Positions 1 to 11,294 of a stretch of 11,294 nucleotides of DNA are shown one piece after another. Below the pieces are notes generated by a model, which was given only the letters and a program-made list of their open reading frames with translations, did no database searches and was not told the origin of the DNA. Numbering within the stretch: the first letter of the stretch is position 1; each line of letters opens with the position of its first letter. Made by a program: the position numbers and the translations under genes. Source of the DNA: Lachnospiraceae bacterium (GTDB taxonomy: Bacteria > Bacillota_A > Clostridia > Lachnospirales > Lachnospiraceae); contig JAGCAV010000448.1 in NCBI GenBank assembly GCA_017652545.1, positions 1 to 11,294 on the forward strand. The letters are read 5' to 3'.

Positions 1-1479
1 CAGCATCGGATGCGCTTTCCGGAACGCAATGAGTTCCCGGACAAAGCCGCGTATGCTCTCCGACATTTTTTTGTCGCTCCAGTCCAGCCAGGTGACGGGA
101 CTGTCCAGACAGTAGGGGTTGTTGTTGCCGCCCTGGGTGTTTCCCGTCTCATCTCCGGCAAGGATCATCGGGGTCCCGCGGGAAAGCAGAAGCATGGCAA
201 AGGCGTTCCTGATCTGCCTGAGCCTCAGCTTCTGGATGGTCATCTTTCTGGTCGGACCTTCCGTTCCGCAGTTCCAGGAGTTCTCGTTTTCAGCTCCGTC
301 CTGCCCGGATTCTCCGTTCTCCTCGTTATGTTTTCTGTCATAGGAGACCAGATCCATCAGGGTAAACCCGTCGTGAGCCGTCACATAATTCACCCAGGCT
401 GCGTCCGTACTGCTCTGGCGGAACCGGTCCACGAAAGCGCGGGTCATGTCGGCATCGCCCTTGAGGATCCTGCGCATATCGGTCTTGAACCCGTCATTGC
501 AGTTGGCAAGGAGCCGGTTGACCTGTTTTTCTTCGTCCAGTCTCACGAAGCCGGGATCAAAATACCCGGTCATGAGCTTGCTCTTTGCCAGCAGCGCATC
601 ATGCGCTGCCATATATGCGATCGAAGGCCGGCACATCAGGTTGAACCCGTCCACATGGTACTCCGTCATCCAGAAGCGGAGCGCTTCCAGAGCCAGGCAT
701 TCCGGTATATCATCGAAAAAGGCAAATTCCATGATCACCTCGATACCGGCCTCATGCATGGAACGGACCATGGTCCTGAATTCCCTGTCCGGCTGCCGCG
801 TGGCACAGTAGCCCGTCTTCGGCGCAAAATACCAGCTCTTTGTAAAGCCCCAGTAATTCAGCTTTCGGCCGGAGGGAATCTCCTCATCCTCTTTGGCCAG
901 ATAGGACGGAACCGGTACCCTTCTCTCCTCGATCTCTTCAAATTCATAGCAGGGCATCAGAATGATCTGGTTGATTCCCAGGTCTTTCAGATACCCGATC
1001 TTTTCCGTCAGTCCCAGAAACGTTCCGGGGTTTTTGACCTTTGCCCTGCTGCCACGTGTAAATCCCCTGACATGCAGGCAATAGGAAATGACCTCGTCAT
1101 AGGGTATGCACGGCGGCGCGTCATCGCCCCAGTCATACTCTGTTTCCGGAAATGAGCAGCGTACCTGGTATTTCCTGCGCCGCTCCATGGATCCGAAATG
1201 CTCACGCCCCCGGATCACTCTGGCTTTCGGATCAATGACGATCCTGCCGCCCACTGAAAAAACATAGTCCGTCTTCGCCCGGTCGATTCCTTCGGCAACT
1301 GCCTGCCGGAAATGACCCTGATAGGGAAGCGGCGTAAACGGAATTTCTGACAGGACCGTCCCGGCTTCATGATCGATCAGGAGAACCTTTGCTTCCTGAT
1401 CTGAATTGAAAGCCGCGCGAAAAACGACTGTTCCGGGAGTTTCCTGTCTTGTCTGATTCTGCTTCGTTCCTGATGTCAT
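1..1479 (-). CDS. GlgX/isoamylase-like GH13 protein, predicted catalytically inactive (3' end cut by window)
   Basis: The reading frame is open from ATG at 1479 to the window edge, giving 493 visible residues; GlgX-type debranching enzymes usually run to about 650-700, so the C-terminus is missing only because of the window. The ATG follows GGGAGA at good spacing. Residues about 1-120 look like an N-terminal beta-sandwich (CBM48-like) region. The barrel starts with YCLHVRGFTRG and a KIGYLKDLGINQIILMP strand. The region around VTAHDGFTLMDLVSY (about 366-380), followed by NSWNCGTEGPT and later ILAGDETGNTQGGNNN, is typical of GlgX/isoamylase/pullulanase proteins. The catalytic motifs are broken. 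Region I reads EVIMEFAFFD instead of the usual VILDVVFNH. Region II reads VDGFNLMCR instead of VDGFRFDLA, so the nucleophile Asp is Met282 and the invariant Arg is Asn280. Region III reads KLMTGYFD instead of KLIAEPWD, so the acid Glu is Gly305. Only region IV (His369-Asp370) is kept. No stop or frameshift is seen, so this is a maintained protein, perhaps a glucan-binding or regulatory one. Family call is firm; role unknown. Confidence 0.88.
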   Translation of the reverse strand, partial: MTSGTKQNQTRQETPGTVVFRAAFNSDQEAKVLLIDHEAGTVLSEIPFTPLPYQGHFRQAVAEGIDRAKTDYVFSVGGRIVIDPKARVIRGREHFGSMERRRKYQVRCSFPETEYDWGDDAPPCIPYDEVISYCLHVRGFTRGSRAKVKNPGTFLGLTEKIGYLKDLGINQIILMPCYEFEEIEERRVPVPSYLAKEDEEIPSGRKLNYWGFTKSWYFAPKTGYCATRQPDREFRTMVRSMHEAGIEVIMEFAFFDDIPECLALEALRFWMTEYHVDGFNLMCRPSIAYMAAHDALLAKSKLMTGYFDPGFVRLDEEKQVNRLLANCNDGFKTDMRRILKGDADMTRAFVDRFRQSSTDAAWVNYVTAHDGFTLMDLVSYDRKHNEENGESGQDGAENENSWNCGTEGPTRKMTIQKLRLRQIRNAFAMLLLSRGTPMILAGDETGNTQGGNNNPYCLDSPVTWLDWSDKKMSESIRGFVRELIAFRKAHPML

Positions 1480-1564: not shown

Positions 1565-2335
1565 TCAGCACAGGCCGGGATCAAGATCAATATCCAGTTC
1601 CACCGGGCAATGATCTGAGCCGAAGACCTGTGTGTGGATTTTTGCATCGTCCAGGGCATCCTTAAGGGATTCCGAAACGCAGAAATAGTCAATGCGCCAG
1701 CCGGCGTTCTTTTCCCGGGCCCTGAACCGATAGGACCACCAGCTGTAGATTCCCGTCACATCCGGATTGAAATAGCGCCAGGTATCGATAAATCCGGAAG
1801 AGAGCATCGCCGAACACTTCGCCCGCTCCTCATCGGTAAAGCCTGCATTGCGGCGGTTGGTCTTCGGATTTTTCAGGTCGATCTCCTGGTGAGCCACATT
1901 CAGGTCCCCGCAGAAGATGACCGGGTGCGTCTTCTCCAGCTCTTTCAGATAGGCCAGAAAATCGTCCTCCCATCTCATACGGTAGTCCAGCCTGGCCAGC
2001 TCATCCTGGGAATTGGGCGTGTACACTGTCACCACCCAGAAGGAGGGATACTCAAGCGTGATCACCCTGCCCTCATGGTCGTGTTCCTCCATGCCGATCC
2101 CGTACCGGACACTGAGCGGATGATGCTTTGTGAAGATGGCCGTCCCGGAATATCCCTTCTTCTCGGCATAGTTCCAGTACTGCTCATACCCTTCCGTCTC
2201 CAGATTAATCTGTCCTGCCTGAAGCTTTGTCTCCTGGAGGCAGAAAAAATCAGCGTCAATCTCCCGGAAAAAGTCCATAAATCCCTTCTGCGCGCAGGCA
2301 CGCAGACCGTTCACATTCCAGGAAATCAGACGCAT
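1565..2335 (-). CDS. xth: Exodeoxyribonuclease III / AP endonuclease (Xth family)
   Basis: This 256-residue cytosolic DNA repair enzyme is full length for the ExoIII family (about 250-270). The family cuts the backbone 5' of abasic sites and removes nucleotides from 3' ends. All the signature motifs are present in order: WNVNGLRA (6-13, Asn7), LQETK with the metal-binding Glu35, VYTPNS (about 104-109), [13 protein letters not shown] with Asp144 and Asn146, [20 protein letters not shown] (about 199-218), and the C-terminal [11 protein letters not shown] with the catalytic Asp241-His242 pair. The ATG at 2335 follows GGGGAGGAAT at good spacing, and the protein starts directly at the first beta strand, as family members usually do. 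The gene has its own predicted promoter upstream, after the terminator of the ABC transporter gene. The GH13-like gene follows 85 nt later in the same direction. No active-site residue is missing. Confidence 0.96.
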
Positions 2336-2466: not shown

Positions 2467-4953
2467 CTATCGCTTGTCCTTATCAATCATCTCAAGGAAT
2501 ATCAGACCGATCAGGACGTATAGGGCTCCGAAGGCTGCCAGGATCCCCCAGCATTTCAGCAGATTTCCTTTTGAATAATTATAAGCAGGTTCTTTCAGCT
2601 TTGTGGCGGTATAGGTCTCGACCTTGTCCTTGACCTCCTCGATCTCCATCACGTTGCGGACCTTTGTCATCAGCTCATCCTGCTCACCGCCCTGCATCGT
2701 CTCAAGCGCGGCAGACAGGATCGTCGACTTCTGGCTGTTGTAATCCGCGGCGATGTTGACCGCGTTGATTCCCCAGTTACTGATGGTCAGCTTGGCGATC
2801 TGCTTTGCCATGGGCCGCTGAATCGGGAAGATACTGCCGGCAAATACCAGCTGCACCACCATCAGGAAAGGCATGATCGTCATGGCCCCGGTGGTCGAAT
2901 GGGCAATACAGGATACTGCCAGTGCCAGCATATCCGAAACATAGGTGGTCAGGAACATGGAAATACCGACATCCAGCGCAAACAGGCCTGTGATCAGTCC
3001 TGTCTTCGGGAAATACATGCCGAACGCCCTGAAGATCACCAGTGTGATGACGACCTGGATCAGGCAGACCAGCGCCTGATAGATCATGTGGGCTGCCAGA
3101 TACGACGATATGTGAAGGCCTGCCCTGTGTTCACGTTTAATGATGCTTCTTTCCTTGCAGACGACCTGGATGGAGTTGAACATGCCGTTCCAGATACAGA
3201 CCATGATCAGCGCCATGGAAGCGTACTTGGTAACCTCCATGTTGCGGAACATCTTGCTGCCCAGCACATAGACCACCAGGTAAGCAATAACCGCAGCCAT
3301 GATGAAGACCTTCCAGTTCTTCTCCGTGAACATCAGGCGGAACTGCTTGCCCAGATAGACCGGTATCTGCTCCACCCGGTTCTTGTATTTGGCCGGCGAT
3401 ACGTTTTCATCCTTTCTGCCTTCCCTGAAACGGGAAAGCGCCGTCCCCTTCGGCGCCTGGTCCGCGTCCGCATACACGGCCCGGGCCTGGCTGGCTCTGT
3501 TCTTTTCGTATTCCTTGTATTTTTCGATGAATTCGTCGGCTCTGCCCTCGCCGCCTTCATTCTTCGCGTTGATCCGCTTGACCACTTCCTCCATGGTCGG
3601 GACGCCAAAGAAATCCCTGGCTTCCTGAATGCCGCCGTAGAAGGCCAGCTGACCGATTTTTGTCTCCGTTCCCTTGGCAAGTACGATCACCTTGTCAAAC
3701 AGATGTGCCACACGGTCCGGAGCATGCGTGATCACCATCACGATCCGTCCCTGGCAGGCGATCAGCCGCAGGTTCTCCATCAGTTCATTCGCCATGATGC
3801 CGTCCAGACCGGAGTCCGGCTCGTCCAGGATAAACAAAGAAGGAGATGCAATGAATTCGGTACAGATGGAGAGTCGTTTTTTCTGGCCGCCGGACAGTTT
3901 GGATACCAGCGTTTTCTCTCTGCCTGAAAGACCGAAGGTTTCCAGAACAGCCGCGATCCGCTTCTTCTTCTCTTCCTCGGGCATGTCGGCCGGAAGCCTC
4001 ATGTCCGCCGCGTTGCTCACGGTGTCTCCCACCGTGTCGTCTTCACGCATCAGGTTCTCCTGGGGGACAAAACCGATCCGGTGCTTCACCTGCCCGTAAT
4101 CGCGATAGTAGTCCAGATCACCTTCCCTGATCGTCGCCTTCGCCTTCTCGTAACCGGTGACCGCATTGACAAACGTACTCTTGCCGGCTCCGGAGCCGCC
4201 CAGGATAAGCACCATGTTGCCCGGTTCGACCGACAGATTGATATCCTTCAGGAGCGTGATCTTCTTCATGGCGCTGTGGGCGGACCGCTCGTCGATATTG
4301 ATCGACAGGCTGCTTTCCTGGGAGGGATAGCCGTACACCAGGCCGGAGCCTTCAAAGAAGAACCTCGTATCGCCGATGGTAATGTTGTCATCGATCCTGA
4401 TCTTGAAGGAATCACCCGCAGGCTCTCCGTTGTGCAGCACGTTTTTCGCCTGGAAATCCTGAATGGTCCAGTATCCTGACTCATACTGCAGCTTGACGAC
4501 CGCCTGGCCTGTCTCCTCCGTCTGGTTCCGGATCTCCACCTGATGACGCCCGTCATCCAGATTGATGATCTGCCAGTTCCTGCCGCTCACAAACTCACTG
4601 AAGAAAATGGCTGTGAGCATTCCCCCGTTGGTAAGCCTGATCACGCTGCCATCCTTCAGTTCCCTGACATCGCCCTTCTCAAGGACCTCGCCTCCGACGA
4701 AAGTGAATACCTCCTCTGACAGATTCTCATAGTACCACTTATCGCCTTCAGTCCAGATCCTGCACTGTTCCTTATCCAGAAAATCATATTCCAGCTGCAG
4801 GCTGGATGTCGTAAAGACATCCATGTCGCACTGTCCTTTGATCAGTGCTTCCCTGAAGATCACATACTGCCTGGGGGCCTCCTGACCTTCAAAAAACAGG
4901 AGTCCGGCAGGCCGACGTCTTCCATTTCCTTTTGTCATATTCCCGTCACTCAT
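2467..4953 (-). CDS. ABCG-like ABC transporter (ATPase fused to permease) with two N-terminal FHA-like domains
   Basis: This 828-residue membrane protein has the ATPase before the membrane domain, as in the ABCG/White family and the mycobacterial FHA-ABC protein Rv1747; substrate unknown. Residues about 15-115 and 120-205 look like two FHA domains: each ends in a typical pattern (ELKDGSVIRL; NVLHNGEP followed by a turn and strand), but the usual phosphothreonine-binding Arg and Ser/His are not evident, so both look degenerate. The ATPase has Walker A GGSGAGKS (252-259), Q-loop VPQEN (about 296-300), signature LSGGQ (353-357), Walker B LFILDEP (373-379) and switch His410. A charged linker (about 455-530) leads to about six membrane segments (roughly 548-567, 580-597, 615-645, 652-685, 690-712, 800-822). 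A GTG at 4968 in the same frame overlaps the upstream stop. ATG at 4953 is preferred because GAGGGG lies seven bases before it. The gene is 11 nt downstream of the secreted-protein gene, in one transcript, so the two may act together. Confidence 0.9.
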   Translation of the reverse strand: MSDGNMTKGNGRRRPAGLLFFEGQEAPRQYVIFREALIKGQCDMDVFTTSSLQLEYDFLDKEQCRIWTEGDKWYYENLSEEVFTFVGGEVLEKGDVRELKDGSVIRLTNGGMLTAIFFSEFVSGRNWQIINLDDGRHQVEIRNQTEETGQAVVKLQYESGYWTIQDFQAKNVLHNGEPAGDSFKIRIDDNITIGDTRFFFEGSGLVYGYPSQESSLSINIDERSAHSAMKKITLLKDINLSVEPGNMVLILGGSGAGKSTFVNAVTGYEKAKATIREGDLDYYRDYGQVKHRIGFVPQENLMREDDTVGDTVSNAADMRLPADMPEEEKKKRIAAVLETFGLSGREKTLVSKLSGGQKKRLSICTEFIASPSLFILDEPDSGLDGIMANELMENLRLIACQGRIVMVITHAPDRVAHLFDKVIVLAKGTETKIGQLAFYGGIQEARDFFGVPTMEEVVKRINAKNEGGEGRADEFIEKYKEYEKNRASQARAVYADADQAPKGTALSRFREGRKDENVSPAKYKNRVEQIPVYLGKQFRLMFTEKNWKVFIMAAVIAYLVVYVLGSKMFRNMEVTKYASMALIMVCIWNGMFNSIQVVCKERSIIKREHRAGLHISSYLAAHMIYQALVCLIQVVITLVIFRAFGMYFPKTGLITGLFALDVGISMFLTTYVSDMLALAVSCIAHSTTGAMTIMPFLMVVQLVFAGSIFPIQRPMAKQIAKLTISNWGINAVNIAADYNSQKSTILSAALETMQGGEQDELMTKVRNVMEIEEVKDKVETYTATKLKEPAYNYSKGNLLKCWGILAAFGALYVLIGLIFLEMIDKDKR

Positions 4954-4964
4954 TTTCAAACCCC

Positions 4965-5573
4965 TCACTGCAGTGCAGCCTGCAGATTCTCCAGTTCGGT
5001 TTTCAGTTCCTCATTAGCCGCCATCTCCGCCATCAGCCCGAACAGTTTCTGTACGTCCTCGTTCTGCTCAAGCTCTGCCAGACCCTTCAATGCCTCTTCG
5101 ATCTCTTCCCTGTGGTCGATCATCGTCAGAATGACTGTTATAAAGGTCTCATTCACCTCCAGGGTCTCGAGGACCTTCCTCGTCAGTTCAGGGTCATCAG
5201 CGGCCATATTGGCCAGATTCTCCACCGTGTAGACAGCCAGGTCCTGCACTTCTTCGTAGCTCATCAGGCTTCGGAAATCCTCATTTTCCATCAGCGCAAT
5301 GACCATCTCGATGTATCCCTGAATCTCCTCCTCGGATATGCCGGGCACATAAGGCGCCACAGCGGCGGCAACCTGATCCGCCGGGATTTTGTCAAGCACC
5401 TGCAGCATTTCATCGACAAGATCGGCATTTTCTCCTGCTTCCGTTCCTTCCCGGGCTGCTGTGCTTTCCGTCACTGCTTCGGTCACCTGTTCTGCCGCAG
5501 CCGGTACCGCGCAGGCTGTCCCCATCAGACACGTGGCCGTGATGACGGCTGCCATTTTCTTTAATCGTCGCAT
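4965..5573 (-). CDS. Secreted acidic helical protein of unknown family
   Basis: This 202-residue protein starts with a clear signal peptide: MRRLKK, a hydrophobic stretch AAVITATCLMGTACAV, and a likely signal peptidase I site after PAAA (about residue 27). The cysteine at about 21 is not in a good lipobox (GTAC lacks Leu at -3), so a lipoprotein is less likely. The mature part is rich in Glu, Ala, Leu and Met, with almost no aromatic residues and no cysteine, and reads as a run of amphipathic helices (for example VDEMLQVLDKIPADQVAAAV and LAELEQNEDVQKLFGLMAEM). No family was recognised. ATG at 5573 has an excellent AGGAGGTGAAAC ribosome binding site. Its stop is just before the start of the FHA-ABC transporter gene, so the two are very likely co-transcribed and the protein may be an extracytoplasmic partner of that transporter. 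That link rests on context only. Confidence 0.8.
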   Translation of the reverse strand: MRRLKKMAAVITATCLMGTACAVPAAAEQVTEAVTESTAAREGTEAGENADLVDEMLQVLDKIPADQVAAAVAPYVPGISEEEIQGYIEMVIALMENEDFRSLMSYEEVQDLAVYTVENLANMAADDPELTRKVLETLEVNETFITVILTMIDHREEIEEALKGLAELEQNEDVQKLFGLMAEMAANEELKTELENLQAALQ

Positions 5574-5780: not shown

Positions 5781-6313
5781 TTATTCGTAATCCCTGCCGA
5801 TCTCCATGCATTTCAGATTCAGATCCAGAAGATCCGCATGTCTGGCGGAGATGCATTTTCCGAGAGCTTTCTTAACCAGCTCCTCATCATATTCTCCGAA
5901 AACGCGCAGAAGTTTTCCCATGAGGATCATGTTCGCCAGGGTCGGCGCACCGTTTTCATTGGCAAGCTTTGTGGCGGGAATGTAGTAGACTTCAACATCA
6001 TCCCGCTCCACCTTTCTTTCGATCAGGCTGCTGTCGACAAAGATTTTGCCGCCGGGCCTGACGGTGGACTCATATTTGTCCAGGGACGGCAGATTCATGG
6101 CCACAAGAACATCCGGCGTTGAGATGATCGGCGCACCGACCGGCTCATCGCTGATGATAACGGAGCAGTTTGCCGTGCCGCCGCGCATCTCGGGTCCGTA
6201 GGACGGGAGCCAGCTTACATTTTTATCCTCAATAAGTCCCTTGTATGCCAGAACTTTTCCGGAAAACAGGAGTCCCTGTCCGCCAAAGCCGGCGAAAAGC
6301 AATTCTCTAGTCA

Positions 6314-6314
<1 letters not shown>
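5781..6314 (-). CDS. 2-oxoacid:ferredoxin oxidoreductase, gamma subunit
   Basis: This 177-residue protein matches the usual size of the stand-alone gamma subunit (KorC/VorC/PorG type) of four-subunit 2-oxoacid:ferredoxin oxidoreductases, cytosolic enzymes that convert a 2-oxo acid plus CoA into acyl-CoA, CO2 and reduced ferredoxin. It has the glycine-rich N-terminal motif FAGFGGQGLLFSGK (7-20) and the family signature YGPEMRGGTANCSV (39-52), and then the PDVLVAMN strand (about 67-74). Its ATG overlaps the beta subunit TAA by one base (TAATG), with AAAGGAGG upstream, so translation is probably coupled. It is the last gene of the operon and is followed by a hairpin. The exact substrate class (2-oxoisovalerate, 2-oxoglutarate or aryl-pyruvate) cannot be read from this subunit. 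Confidence 0.93.
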
Positions 6315-7084
<770 letters not shown>

Positions 7085-7085
7085 A

Positions 7086-8150
7086 TTATTCACCTGCCTT
7101 TCCGGCTGCTGCCCTGATGGCTTCAAAGACCTGTTCCGGAGACGGGATCATGCCGCCCACCCTGTTGCAGAGTGTGACCGGAACCTTGCATTCTGTCGCG
7201 AGTTTCACATCTTCGATCATCTGACCCATGGACAGCTCAACGCTGATGATCTGTCTGGCTGTGCCGAGTGTCTTCTGGAAGACCTTCGTCGGGAACGGCC
7301 ACAGGGTAATGGGACGGATCAGACCAACCTTGATGCCTTCGGCTCTGGCAGCGTTCACCGCGTTCTTTGAAACACGGGCTGCAATACCGAAAGCCGCGAT
7401 CACGATCTCGGCATCATCCAGAAGGTATTCTTCCGCAAGGGCTTCTTTCTCACAGACCTGTGCGTATTTCTGATAGCGCTCAATGTTTTTGGCTTCCAGC
7501 ACATCCGGTTTCAGATACAGTGAGTTCGCGATGTTGTGTTCCCTGGCCATCTTTGTGCCTGTGGTTGCCCAGGGCTTTTCGGGCGCTTCCTTCACTTCAA
7601 AATCGAAGGAGACCGGTTCCATCATCTGGCCGATCGTACCGTCGGCAAGAACCATGGCGGGCATGCGGTACTCATCCGCCAGTTCGAAACCGCGGATCGT
7701 CAGCTGGGCCATCTCCTGCACGGAAGAGGGTGCGAGAACGATCAGATGGTAATCACCATGACCGCCGCCCCTGGTTGCCTGGAAGTAATCGGACTGACTG
7801 GGCTGAATGCCGCCAAGGCCGGGGCCGCCTCTCTGGCAGTTGACGATCAGAGCGGGAAGATCCGAACCTGCAAGGTAGGAAATGCCTTCGCTTTTCAGTG
7901 AGATTCCCGGGCTGGAGGAGGATGTCATCACGCGCTTGCCTGCCGCAGAAACACCGTAGACCATATTGATGGCGGCAATTTCGCTTTCCGCCTGAAGAAA
8001 TGTTCCGCCGATTTTGGGCATTCTCTTTGCCAGATAGGCCGCGATCTCTGTCTGCGGCGTGATCGGATATCCGAAATAATGACGGCAGCCGGCGATGATC
8101 GCAGCTTCCGCTATGGCTTCATTTCCCTTCATTAATACTTTTTCTGCCAA
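7086..8150 (-). CDS. vorB: 2-oxoacid:ferredoxin oxidoreductase, alpha subunit (VorB-like, 3-methyl-2-oxobutanoate type)
   Basis: This 354-residue alpha subunit is full length and has the family's N-terminal signature FGYPITPQTEI (26-36), then LQAESEIAAINMVYGVSAAG (52-71), SSSSPGISL (77-85) and RGGPGLGGIQPSQSDY (107-122). The opening MAEKVLMKGNEAIAEAA matches proteins annotated as VorB in Clostridia. The enzyme interconverts branched-chain 2-oxo acids (from Val, Leu, Ile) and their acyl-CoAs plus CO2 with ferredoxin. The substrate is inferred from family resemblance; 2-oxoglutarate or aryl-2-oxo acids remain possible. The start is TTG at 8150, supported by GAGGTGAG upstream; the next in-frame ATG at 8132 has no ribosome binding site and would drop conserved residues. 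The gene lies 11 nt after the ferredoxin gene and 1 nt before the beta gene. Confidence 0.93.
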   Translation of the reverse strand: MAEKVLMKGNEAIAEAAIIAGCRHYFGYPITPQTEIAAYLAKRMPKIGGTFLQAESEIAAINMVYGVSAAGKRVMTSSSSPGISLKSEGISYLAGSDLPALIVNCQRGGPGLGGIQPSQSDYFQATRGGGHGDYHLIVLAPSSVQEMAQLTIRGFELADEYRMPAMVLADGTIGQMMEPVSFDFEVKEAPEKPWATTGTKMAREHNIANSLYLKPDVLEAKNIERYQKYAQVCEKEALAEEYLLDDAEIVIAAFGIAARVSKNAVNAARAEGIKVGLIRPITLWPFPTKVFQKTLGTARQIISVELSMGQMIEDVKLATECKVPVTLCNRVGGMIPSPEQVFEAIRAAAGKAGE

Positions 8151-8161
8151 TTCATCTCACC

Positions 8162-8368
8162 TCACTTTTCGATTTTGATAATGCAGTCGGGACACATCGT
8201 CGCACAGGATGCGCAGGCGATGCAAGCAGCTTCATCAACACACTCCGCGGGGTGATGTCCTTTCTTGTTAATGGTTTCCTTCGCCAGCTGAAGGATCCCC
8301 TTGGGACATGCTTCAACGCAGAGACCGCATCCTTTGCACTCATCTGTTTTGAATGTCAGTTTTGCCAT
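8162..8368 (-). CDS. 2x[4Fe-4S] ferredoxin-type delta subunit of the 2-oxoacid oxidoreductase
   Basis: This 68-residue protein has two complete cluster motifs: Cys11-x2-Cys14-x2-Cys17-x3-Cys21-Pro and Cys49-x2-Cys52-x2-Cys55-x3-Cys59-Pro. An extra Cys62 follows the second motif and is not needed for a cluster. Its size and position directly before the alpha gene are those of the delta subunit of four-subunit 2-oxoacid:ferredoxin oxidoreductases, where it passes electrons from the beta-subunit cluster to an external ferredoxin. ATG at 8368 has a strong AGGAGG site. It is 30 nt downstream of the P-loop ATPase gene and 11 nt upstream of the alpha gene. Confidence 0.94.
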   Translation of the reverse strand: MAKLTFKTDECKGCGLCVEACPKGILQLAKETINKKGHHPAECVDEAACIACASCATMCPDCIIKIEK

Positions 8369-8403: not shown

Positions 8404-9061
8404 CAGGCCGCTTCTGCAGATGCATCGGAAAAAGATTTCCGATCCGGTCCTGCAGCTTTTCGCCGATATCCTGTGTAACACTGGTCATGACAACGGGAAG
8501 CGAGCAAAGGCGCGCAACCTCATCGGCGTAGGCCAGAGAGGAAAGCACATCTTCCGGTGTTGTCGCGGCTCCCAGATTGGAGTTATTAATAATGCCTGTG
8601 AACTTCAGGGAGGCGGCTTCCTCGATTTCCCTCATGACTTCCATGGTCGATTCCGCGTCCCGCGTCAGCGGGCGGAAGCGGTTGACAACCAGCAGCATAT
8701 CATAATTATTTTCCTCGCGGATGGCCGGTGAAAGTCTTCCCAGCGCATAGGCGCCGCGGTCGTCTCCTCCCACATCCACAATGCAGGTGAGCTCCCTGTC
8801 GTCCACGATCGCGTACATTTCCTGGGGCATGGCCGGTATGTCAACATTGGAATTCGCGTACCGGGAAACGATCAGCCGGATTCCCGCTTCATCCAGTTCC
8901 CGGACGCTGTCCGCCGAGCGGTAATAGGGATTGACGATATCCAGATCGGCAATGGCTACCCGCTCTGTCTGTCTTCGCACATCCAGCGCCATATTGACGG
9001 CGATGTTCGTTTTCCCGCTGCCATAATGCCCGCACAGGAGCGTTATTCTTTTATAATTCAT
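8399..9061 (-). CDS. P-loop ATPase of the MinD/ParA-like (CobQ/CobB) fold, role unknown
   Basis: This 220-residue soluble protein opens with a Walker A motif, CGHYGSGKTN (10-19). It then has ADLDIVNPYYRS (39-50, switch-like Asp41), a Walker B-like CIVDVGGDD (93-101) and VVNRFRP (125-131) at the base-recognition position. The order of motifs fits the SIMIBI class (MinD, ParA, Nbp35), but the second residue of the P-loop is His rather than the signature Lys of deviant Walker A proteins. No CxxC pair like that of Nbp35/ApbC cluster carriers is present; the only cysteines are 10, 93 and 186. Its ATG overlaps the synthetase stop by 11 nt and has only a weak, distant GGAAAG site, so it depends on translational coupling. 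Its place between the synthetase and the oxidoreductase suggests a role in assembling or controlling that enzyme. This is inference; no function is recognised. Confidence 0.85.
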   Translation of the reverse strand: MNYKRITLLCGHYGSGKTNIAVNMALDVRRQTERVAIADLDIVNPYYRSADSVRELDEAGIRLIVSRYANSNVDIPAMPQEMYAIVDDRELTCIVDVGGDDRGAYALGRLSPAIREENNYDMLLVVNRFRPLTRDAESTMEVMREIEEAASLKFTGIINNSNLGAATTPEDVLSSLAYADEVARLCSLPVVMTSVTQDIGEKLQDRIGNLFPMHLQKRPV

Positions 9062-11294
9062 GTCTGATGATCTTTCCGCTCACGGTCTTCGGCAGCTGAT
9101 CCTTAAATACGACAATTCGCGGATACTTGTACGGGGCCGTGTGCACCTTGACATATTCCTGAATTTCCTTCACAAGCTCGTCTGACCCTTCTTTGCCGGG
9201 GACAAGAACGATGCTGGCTTTGACCACAAAGCCCCTGACCGGATCCTTGGCGGCACTCACGCCGCATTCAAGCACATAGGGCAGCTCCATCAGCACGCTT
9301 TCGATCTCGAACGGTCCGATGCGGTAGCCGGAAGATTTGATCACATCGTCCTTTCTGCCTACATACCAGTAGAAACCGTCCTCATCCTTCCAGGCAAGGT
9401 CTCCCGTATGGTACCAGCCGTCTTTCCAGGTTTCTCTGGTTTCATCCTCATTGTTGTAGTAGCAGACCGCAAGACCGCAGGGAACACCTTTGCTGATATT
9501 GATGCAGATCTCGCCTTCCTCACCGAACGGTACCGGTTTGCCATTCTCATCAAGCAGCGCGACATCGTAGGTCGGGACCGGTTTGCCCATTGAACCGATC
9601 TTATGCGGCGCACCGACCAGGTTGCCGATGATCAGAGCGGATTCCGACTGGCCGAACCCTTCCATGATCCGAAGGCCTGTAGCCTTTTCAAACTGGCGGT
9701 ATACTTCCGGATTAAGCGCTTCACCCGCTGTTGTCATGTGCTTCACAGAGGAGAAGTCATATTTGCTGATGTCCTGCTTGATCATCATGCGGAGCATGGT
9801 CGGCGGCGCGCAGAACGTCGTGATGTGATGCTTCGCAAACATCGGCAGGATCTTTGAGGCGTCGAAGCGGTCAAAGTCATATACGAAGATCGCGCCCTCA
9901 CACAGCCACTGGCCATAGATCTTGCCCCATGTCGCCTTGGCCCATCCGGTATCGGAGATGGTAAAGTGCAGGCCTTCGGGATCCACTGTATGCCAGTATT
10001 TTGCCGTATGGAAATGGCCGAGCGGATATTTGTAGGTATGCGCCGCGATCTTGGGATATCCGGATGTCCCGGATGTAAAGTACATCAGCATCAGATCGTC
10101 GCCGCACGGAGATGTCCCGGTCCTGCGGAAACGGGAACTGAAGAGCGGATATTCCTCGTCAAAAGAGCGCCATCCCGGTCTGTCTCCGTTCACGATCATC
10201 ATATTTTCCAGCATATGGCAGTGTTCCTGCGCAATCTCCACCTGATGCGCCGTATCACCGTCGGCTGTACACAGGATGGATGTAATGCCGGCAGCCTGCA
10301 GACGATACTCCAGGTCGTGTGCCAGCAGCTGGTTGGTCGCGGGAATCGCAATGGCACCAAGCTTGTTGAGTCCGACGATCGCATACCAGAACTGGTAATG
10401 GCGTTTCAGAATCAGCATGACGCGGTCGCCCTTCTTGATCCCGAGTGATTTAAAATAATTGGCGCAGCGCGAAGATTCCTTGCGCACATCCTCAAAAGTG
10501 ATCCTGCGCTCTGTCCCGTCTTTGGAGATATGCAGCATGGCCAGCTTTTCGGGATCACGCTTCGCCAGTTCATCCACAAGGTCAAAGCCGAAGTTGAAAC
10601 GATCGGCGTTCCTGAATGTAATGGAGGTCGGGGTCCCTTTCTCGTTCTCCTCCACACTGATGAATTCATGCCAGATCCGCTCACTGTCATCGACAGTCTG
10701 TGCAGCGGTGGCTTCCTCAATGATCGGATGCTGGGTAAGCTCCGGGATCGGCTCTCCGGCCGGGTTCAGGACGATGGCGTAGAAGATGCAGTCACGGCCG
10801 CCGACAGCGATCATGCCGTGAGGCGTGCTGCTGTCATAGTAGATGCTGTCGCCGGGGCCAAGGATCTCGCTGTGCTCACCGATCTGCACCTTCAGGCTGC
10901 CGTCAACGACGATATCGCACTCCTGTCCTTCATGCTTTGTCAGGTCGATCGGCCGGTCCTGGGCAGCTTCATCGAAAATGCTGCGCACATAGAGCGGCTC
11001 GGCGATCCTGTTCTGGAACGCATACGCAAGGTTGTAATACGTCATGCCGTGAGCGCTGGAGATCTTCTGGCCTGCGCCGGTCCTGGTCAGTGTATAGGAA
11101 CGCAGGGTCGGGCTGTAACCTTCCAGGATATCCGTAACAGATACTTTCAGTGCCAGAGAGCACCGATAGATAAATGTAAAGTTCAGATCCTGCATGCCGG
11201 ATTCATATTCCAGATATTCCGGAACCGTAAGATCGGTCGCCTGTGCCATTTCTTCCGTCGTTTTGTTTTCCAGCTCGCGAAGTACACGAATACG
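9051..11294 (-). CDS. HTH-cupin-acyl-CoA synthetase fusion (AMP-forming); 5' end outside window
   Basis: The frame stays open from the TAA at 9051 to the window edge, 747 residues. An internal ATG at 11249 is not the start, because the 15 codons before it continue the helix-turn-helix. Residues numbered from the first visible codon: an XRE-type HTH (1-59, including TEEMAQATDLTVPEYLEYES), a cupin (about 100-180, possible ligands His121, Glu125 and His159; GPGDSIYY), then an AMP-binding synthetase (about 230-747). The synthetase has P-loop-like FTSGTSGYPK (406-415), EGFGQSE (545-551), YHTGDLAW (628-635), GRKDDVIKSSGYRI (646-659) and C-terminal PKTVSGKIIR with the adenylation Lys741. SDTGWAKATWG resembles medium-chain (ACSM-type) enzymes, which turn a carboxylic acid, ATP and CoA into acyl-CoA, AMP and PPi. 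XRE-cupin proteins are usually stand-alone repressors or activators, so the enzyme probably carries its own regulator. The real substrate and DNA site are unknown. It is the first visible gene of the operon. Confidence 0.92.
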   Translation of the reverse strand, partial: RIRVLRELENKTTEEMAQATDLTVPEYLEYESGMQDLNFTFIYRCSLALKVSVTDILEGYSPTLRSYTLTRTGAGQKISSAHGMTYYNLAYAFQNRIAEPLYVRSIFDEAAQDRPIDLTKHEGQECDIVVDGSLKVQIGEHSEILGPGDSIYYDSSTPHGMIAVGGRDCIFYAIVLNPAGEPIPELTQHPIIEEATAAQTVDDSERIWHEFISVEENEKGTPTSITFRNADRFNFGFDLVDELAKRDPEKLAMLHISKDGTERRITFEDVRKESSRCANYFKSLGIKKGDRVMLILKRHYQFWYAIVGLNKLGAIAIPATNQLLAHDLEYRLQAAGITSILCTADGDTAHQVEIAQEHCHMLENMMIVNGDRPGWRSFDEEYPLFSSRFRRTGTSPCGDDLMLMYFTSGTSGYPKIAAHTYKYPLGHFHTAKYWHTVDPEGLHFTISDTGWAKATWGKIYGQWLCEGAIFVYDFDRFDASKILPMFAKHHITTFCAPPTMLRMMIKQDISKYDFSSVKHMTTAGEALNPEVYRQFEKATGLRIMEGFGQSESALIIGNLVGAPHKIGSMGKPVPTYDVALLDENGKPVPFGEEGEICINISKGVPCGLAVCYYNNEDETRETWKDGWYHTGDLAWKDEDGFYWYVGRKDDVIKSSGYRIGPFEIESVLMELPYVLECGVSAAKDPVRGFVVKASIVLVPGKEGSDELVKEIQEYVKVHTAPYKYPRIVVFKDQLPKTVSGKIIRHEL

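Follow-up and report, generated by a model that had tools for sequence, protein, structure and literature searches.

The closest described counterpart of the protein treated here comes from plants. ISA2 is a noncatalytic GH13_11 paralogue whose nucleophile and most other catalytic residues have been replaced lineage-wide, which is retained by selection and which evolves faster than its active paralogue; its noncatalytic role is itself under study, and the reason for its retention is called not understood (PMC12510319). GlgX and TreX likewise belong to GH13_11 (TIGR02100). Butyrivibrio hungatei MB2003 possesses a glgX1 of 726 aa with GH13 and CBM48 and a glgX2 of 648 aa with GH13 and without CBM48 (PMC5716241), while Blautia obeum contains two glgX homologues (PMC10395257).

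The gene under study lies at the edge of the window, that is, the whole 11,294-nucleotide stretch of DNA from a Lachnospiraceae bacterium (contig JAGCAV010000448.1) that was analysed. It encodes a member of a group of GlgX/isoamylase relatives devoid of the GH13 nucleophile and acid/base, for which the terms "dead-type" and "dead copy" are used; a long type (n = 113) and a short type (n = 17) can be distinguished. No description of this family was found in literature searches on isoamylase and GH13 pseudoenzymes and on catalytic residues of Lachnospiraceae GlgX.

Gene Organization in the Window

The reading frame is cut by the window edge at base 1, so that about 124 C-terminal residues, as estimated from the homologue P0001, are outside. 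The start would be either ATG 1521 (507 codons in the window, 14 more) or ATG 1479 (493 codons). The latter is preferable, because a GGGAG-type ribosome site is located just upstream and P0001 starts there. P0001 (617 aa) is the closest among the matches listed, with 94% identity over 97% of the query; since both proteins begin at the 1479 start, residue numbers of the window protein are also those of P0001.

Ahead of the upstream neighbour xth (Table 1), a 13-pair terminator-like site is found on the minus strand at 2458-2428, and a promoter-like site is present nearby at 2400-2371, the number of such sites in the window being no better than chance. Between xth and the pseudoenzyme gene no terminator-like site was found on the minus strand, from which it follows that the two genes may be transcribed together. 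Long open frames on the plus strand (1-1155, 1634-2428, and 2899-3927) face real genes in antisense orientation and are probably an effect of composition rather than genes. The remainder of the window carries, all on the minus strand, an 833-aa chain uniting an FHA domain, an ABC ATPase, and an ABC-2 membrane domain (2467-4968); a 202-aa acidic protein, secreted-looking by eye (4965-5573), flanked by the FHA-ABC gene and the oxidoreductase genes and without a Pfam or NCBIfam match at E<=0.001; four consecutive 2-oxoacid:ferredoxin oxidoreductase genes (gamma, beta, VorB-like alpha, and ferredoxin; 5781-8368); and a fusion of a cupin domain with an AMP-binding acyl-CoA synthetase (9051-11249), the frame of which continues to the window edge.

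Table 1. Features of the pseudoenzyme gene and its upstream neighbour (window coordinates)
Feature	Position	Strand	Basis or remark
GlgX/isoamylase-like pseudoenzyme gene, N-terminal 493 codons	1..1479	-	ORF open to base 1; C-terminus beyond window
N454-P455-Y456, sugar-contact Asn and Tyr kept	112..120	-	Motif placement
NGExxxDG...SWNCGxEG loop, residues 383-408, nearly invariant; E390 at sugar-contact position	256..333	-	Mostly low model confidence
Region IV His369-Asp370, kept	370..375	-	Alignment
Region III remnant, G305 for acid/base Glu, F307 for subsite -1 Trp	559..567	-	Alignment
Region II remnant DGFNLM, N280 for Arg, M282 at nucleophile Asp site	634..651	-	Alignment
Approximate junction of the missing 44 residues between regions I and II	696..708	-	29 versus 73 residues
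Region I remnant from E251 to D256, which stand for the GlgX Asp and His	712..729	-	Alignment, E. coli GlgX D261/H266
W210-G211-F212, Trp of subsite -1 kept, Phe in place of Tyr (as in 20/113)	844..852	-	Motif placement
Exodeoxyribonuclease III gene (xth), directly upstream	1565..2335	-	TIGR00633, 326 bits, above cut-off; neighbour outside the claimed function

Loss of the Catalytic Centre

The match of the window protein to the GlgX and alpha-amylase families is far above chance. With PF00128 it reaches 34.9 bits, over the cut-off of 22, while the match to TIGR02100 (E=2.3e-88, 297 bits) stays under the cut-off of 640.9, the query being a fragment cut by the window; dead copies in the genomes of seven named relatives attain at most 203 bits to TIGR02100 in their best stretch. 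In sequence, plant isoamylase 1, GlgX, and TreX are the nearest proteins of solved structure, and the model of P0001 predicts an isoamylase-type fold along the whole chain, with N-terminal strands at the place corresponding to CBM48. A search with PF02922 (CBM48) at E<=1 gave no match in the dead proteins P0001, P0010, and P0094 and a match in the active GlgX of locus L010; a precomputed PF02922 match is present in one (P0066) among the best 120 homologues listed.

The sequence-only reading had placed Glu251, Asp256, Asn280, Met282, and Gly305 at the canonical GH13 sites, and all of these calls prove right upon alignment to E. coli GlgX, where they correspond to D261, H266, R334, D336, and E371, respectively. 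Its statement that region IV and the GlgX-type motifs after it are kept holds likewise, H442/D443 being aligned to H369/D370 and GNNN and other motifs being conserved, and the frame is open throughout on the minus strand, as it had described for the 493 codons. Beyond that reading are the loss of 44 residues between regions I and II and the truncation of the C-terminus by the window edge. The column of D336 is a gap in the large alignment and Met282 in the smaller one; the nucleophile position was, therefore, also read gap-free, two residues after the position of the region II Arg.

By this gap-free reading, an acidic residue is found at the nucleophile site in 0/113 proteins of the long type, 1/17 of the short type, and 30/30 active GlgX; for the acid/base Glu the numbers are 6/113, 0/17, and 30/30, and none of the 113 long and 17 short relatives combines the two. 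The recurrence of this loss in orthologues, for which the first reading had suggested a search, thus extends throughout the family. Of the remaining residues, the long type keeps the region I Asp in 6/113, the region I His in 1/113, and the region II Arg in 16/113, while region IV has its His in 94/113 and its Asp in 92/113; in active GlgX of this bacterial family, all seven residues are kept at 30/30 loci. The region I Asp and region II Arg positions are 29 residues apart in 111/113 long proteins (28 in the remaining two) and 17/17 short ones versus 73 residues in 30/30 active GlgX, which implies a 44-residue deletion fixed in the dead family. In a separate alignment the nucleophile Asp is absent in all of the best 120 homologues of 7571 proteins matched at E<=0.001, a result which covers these 120, as the other matches may include active GlgX.

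Near-duplicates among the 120 + 120 listed proteins and the loci were discarded, leaving 111. Outside the counts of 113, 17, and 30 stand two partial ORFs (L107 and L108) and 20 dead-type rows from 20-kb loci (L069-L088), 19 of which repeat genomes already present via another locus; L088, from genome G109 and also dead, does not.

Several variants deserve mention. The short clade (L090-L106) has also lost the region III segment, and its region IV has H or Q followed by T or N and GFT; judged from its sequences, the same active site would have eroded further here. In the subclade L001-L005, L007, L051, and L056, the region IV His-Asp pair is replaced by Tyr-Tyr. An outlying dead copy of 759 aa (L143, genome G137) reads IDAVHLS in region II and HNTMT in region IV.

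Substitute acids had been named beforehand as the finding that would speak against catalytic loss. D257, D277, and D308 were considered as catalytic residues and are rejected on the alignment: D257 is one residue past the region I His position and outside the invariant or nearly invariant columns of the family; D277 belongs to the HVDGF motif, which is found in active and dead proteins alike; and D308 aligns with E. coli D374, where Pro is the commonest residue of the dead family (50%). From the sequence comparison, the window protein is very probably dead as a GH13 hydrolase.

Conserved Part of the Putative Sugar-Binding Cleft

In 29 active GlgX, 132 columns show a conservation of at least 97%; at 60 of them at least 90% of 82 dead sequences carry the same residue, and another 53 have been lost, 17 through deletion. 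Losses and conservation are distributed unevenly: 42/53 losses are at E. coli positions 238-398, which comprise the cutting machinery, and 30/60 kept columns are at positions 437-540.

The residues of Streptomyces venezuelae GlgX that contact acarbose are given in PMC9530166; they were placed by motif and constant offset, the sequence being outside the alignment, and R212 was left unplaced. On this placement four contacts to the -1 sugar are changed in most proteins of the long type (His kept in 1/113, nucleophile in 0/113, acid/base in 6/113, and Trp in 8/113). Kept are the Trp of WGY (113/113), the Glu of NGE (111/113), the Asn of GNNN (113/113), and its Tyr (96/113, the rest being Trp), and the same four contacts are kept in 17/17 of the short type. 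Sugar-contact residues away from the bond-cutting centre, on one side of the cleft, are nearly invariant. The NGE Glu is not simply inherited from the nearest active GlgX, because the position is Trp there in 29/30. Of the acids near the cleft, D443 and E444, for example, are invariant, and E390 is nearly so.

Distribution and Evolution

A profile of 70 sequences, that of the window included, was searched against 150 genomes of the family containing Lachnospiraceae bacterium G41. Some match at E<=0.001 is found in 138/150 genomes, and a dead copy in 125/150 after strong full-length and short-type matches were separated from GlgX-like and weak ones; of these 125 carriers, 51 were checked by residue via loci and 2 (G081 and G154) by partial ORFs, and the remaining 72 were assigned from score, extent, and frame length. 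Many profile matches show stops, usually single ones; the frames in the fetched loci are open and encode 568-759 aa. In an order-level sample, a strong long-type match occurs in 20/196 genomes, five of them shared with the first sample, at a cut-off that divergent or short types could escape.

In a tree of 90 proteins, calculated by a quick method with 14 active rows from the same bacterial group and E. coli as distant outgroup, 75 dead and 15 active proteins are split by a branch with 100% SH-aLRT, and the 17 short proteins form one clade within the dead ones. Where it can be measured, the dead proteins are under purifying selection: dN/dS is 0.051 (L002/L004), 0.106 (L001/L007), and 0.059 (L003/L005; dS 1.46, near saturation) in three close pairs, which all belong to a subclade away from the window gene; no other pair of loci exceeds 60% identity. 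Recurrent catalytic loss, intact frames, and these ratios bear out the earlier view of a pseudoenzyme that is retained and not of a decaying gene. In 18 genomes with both genes, two GlgX proteins resemble each other more closely than do the corresponding dead copies in 148/153 comparisons (median identity 0.615 versus 0.445). The dead copy is faster-evolving than GlgX but clearly constrained.

Genome Context and Possible Function

Glycogen synthase is encoded in 146 of the 150 genomes, GlgX (E<=1e-80) in 45, type I pullulanase in 37, and GDE_C in 27; many of the sampled genomes are in many contigs, and the debranching census consists of GlgX, type I pullulanase, and GDE_C, other GH13 enzymes being outside it. 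GlgX and a dead copy occur together in 42 genomes, the dead copy only in 83, GlgX only in 3, and neither in 22, where G055 is counted as GlgX only, though it also holds an unassigned C-terminal fragment. Neither GlgX nor type I pullulanase was detected in 59/125 carriers, and GDE_C was also undetected in 57/125. In the order-level sample glgA is present in 179/196 genomes. For an association between the dead copy and glgA in the 150 genomes Fisher's test gave p=0.13, glgA being too common for the test to have power.

Over 28 loci, the recurrent neighbours of dead copies look like housekeeping genes (DUF5662-like in 13, trpS-like in 13, and xth-like in 6), with names beyond the window read by eye and with the window locus entered with an antisense ORF replacing xth. 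In L001-L007 the trpS-like gene comes after the dead gene. No glycogen (glg) gene is among the recurrent neighbour clusters of the 28 loci, and a conserved operon with glycogen genes was rejected on this ground.

The best explanation, held to be somewhat better than an even chance on the sequence evidence, is a non-hydrolytic GlgX/isoamylase pseudoenzyme that would bind alpha-glucan and act as glycogen-associated scaffold, sensor, or regulator. The remaining cleft would bind alpha-1,4/1,6-glucan chains without cutting them, and the protein would alter the reach of other enzymes to glycogen, as has been proposed for plant ISA2. That alpha-glucan is still bound is considered probable in its own right; glucan binding had been suggested from the start and is supported by the kept sugar contacts, which fall short of proof, while a role in the control of glycogen turnover, suggested along with it, can only be inferred. 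Homology and kept contacts make a scaffolding or regulatory role in association with glycogen the likeliest one. Against this explanation stand the weak link to glycogen, with glgA near-universal and no recurrent glg neighbour, the low confidence of the model over most of loop 383-408, and the subclade deprived of the region IV His-Asp.

Alternatively, the present job could be outside glycogen metabolism, the scaffold having been repurposed and the sugar-type cleft binding something else. The neighbours (xth in the window, trpS-like and DUF5662-like genes elsewhere) and the frequent absence of known debranching enzymes from carriers would agree with this, but most glucose-touching residues outside the cutting centre are kept and nearly all carriers have glycogen synthase, so it is regarded as unlikely, if conceivable. 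An obligate regulatory subunit of active GlgX, in a heteromer like plant ISA1-ISA2, would account for the dead copy in 42/45 GlgX-bearing genomes (Fisher p=0.03, uncorrected for kinship), for the fragment in G055, one of the other three, for the close vicinity of both genes in one genome (G140), and for the modelled fold, which matches ISA1/ISA2 complexes. The absence of a GlgX match at E<=1e-80 from 83/125 carriers, 59 of which also have no type I pullulanase match, argues against it; missing sequence is an unlikely cause in G145 and G109, in each of which one contig makes up nearly the whole assembly (2.9 of 3.0 Mb and 3.6 of 3.7 Mb) and which yet show the pattern of a carrier with neither match. 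A simple GlgX subunit is thus rejected as a general explanation, and the subunit idea as such is judged improbable. That pseudoenzyme is, consequently, not merely the obligate partner of an active GlgX.

An active glucan enzyme with non-canonical catalytic residues, replacing the missing debranching enzyme, might be suspected from the 57 carriers in which none of the three debranching types was detected and from the invariant acids near the cleft. It is very unlikely, as both nucleophile and acid/base are missing, the nucleophile position is not filled by any conserved acid, the 17 short proteins have, in addition, lost the region III segment, and other GH13 enzymes of those genomes could debranch. 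A decaying or assembly-damaged glgX copy, finally, would fit the faster evolution relative to GlgX; for the family, decay is already refuted by the long open frames, the single clade with its fixed deletion, the dN/dS of 0.05-0.11, and the nearly invariant motifs, and its probability is negligible.

Comparison with Known Systems and Implications

With GlgX and TreX the dead family shares fold, domain order, region IV, and the NGExxxDG, SWNCGxEG, GDE, and GNNN motifs; it differs from them in the missing nucleophile and acid/base, the altered region I, and the segment lost between regions I and II, and the window protein in its TIGR02100 score. By analogy, it may be seen as a bacterial parallel to plant ISA2, the nearest one at hand. 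Like ISA2 (PMC12510319), it has an isoamylase fold, replaced nucleophile and most catalytic residues, retention by selection, and a rate of evolution above that of the active paralogue. Unlike ISA2, it has the 44-residue deletion, and active GlgX is not detected in most carriers. The extra N-terminal beta-sandwich of ISA2 (PMC12510319) is not seen in the model of P0001, where the ordinary isoamylase fold starts at about residue 15 and, therefore, leaves no room for it. The family profile scores 374 bits with ISA1 versus 192 bits with ISA2. Because of its own deletion, the missing extra domain, and this preference for ISA1, the dead family appears, by sequence, to have an origin separate from ISA2.

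The sizes and CBM48 pattern of glgX1 and glgX2 of B. hungatei match those of the active and dead types, respectively, and glgX2 is annotated as debranching enzyme; from its size alone (PMC5716241), one might guess that it is a dead-family member.

Summarizing, the catalytic loss is common to an entire protein family of gut and rumen bacteria that is actively conserved and that probably binds or organises glycogen instead. A bolder and rather doubtful view is that a non-cutting isoamylase organises the glycogen of Lachnospiraceae lineage-wide and has outlived the debranching enzyme, with dead GlgX presenting or gating chains for other enzymes; in the approximately 50% of carriers without detected GlgX or type I pullulanase, glycogen turnover might then depend on dead GlgX. 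Among the gut and rumen bacteria of this family, many proteins that resemble glycogen debranching enzymes cannot be taken as a sign of debranching capacity. The bacterial family, whose origin looks independent, would offer a simple system for asking what the fold of a debranching enzyme does when it is unable to debranch.
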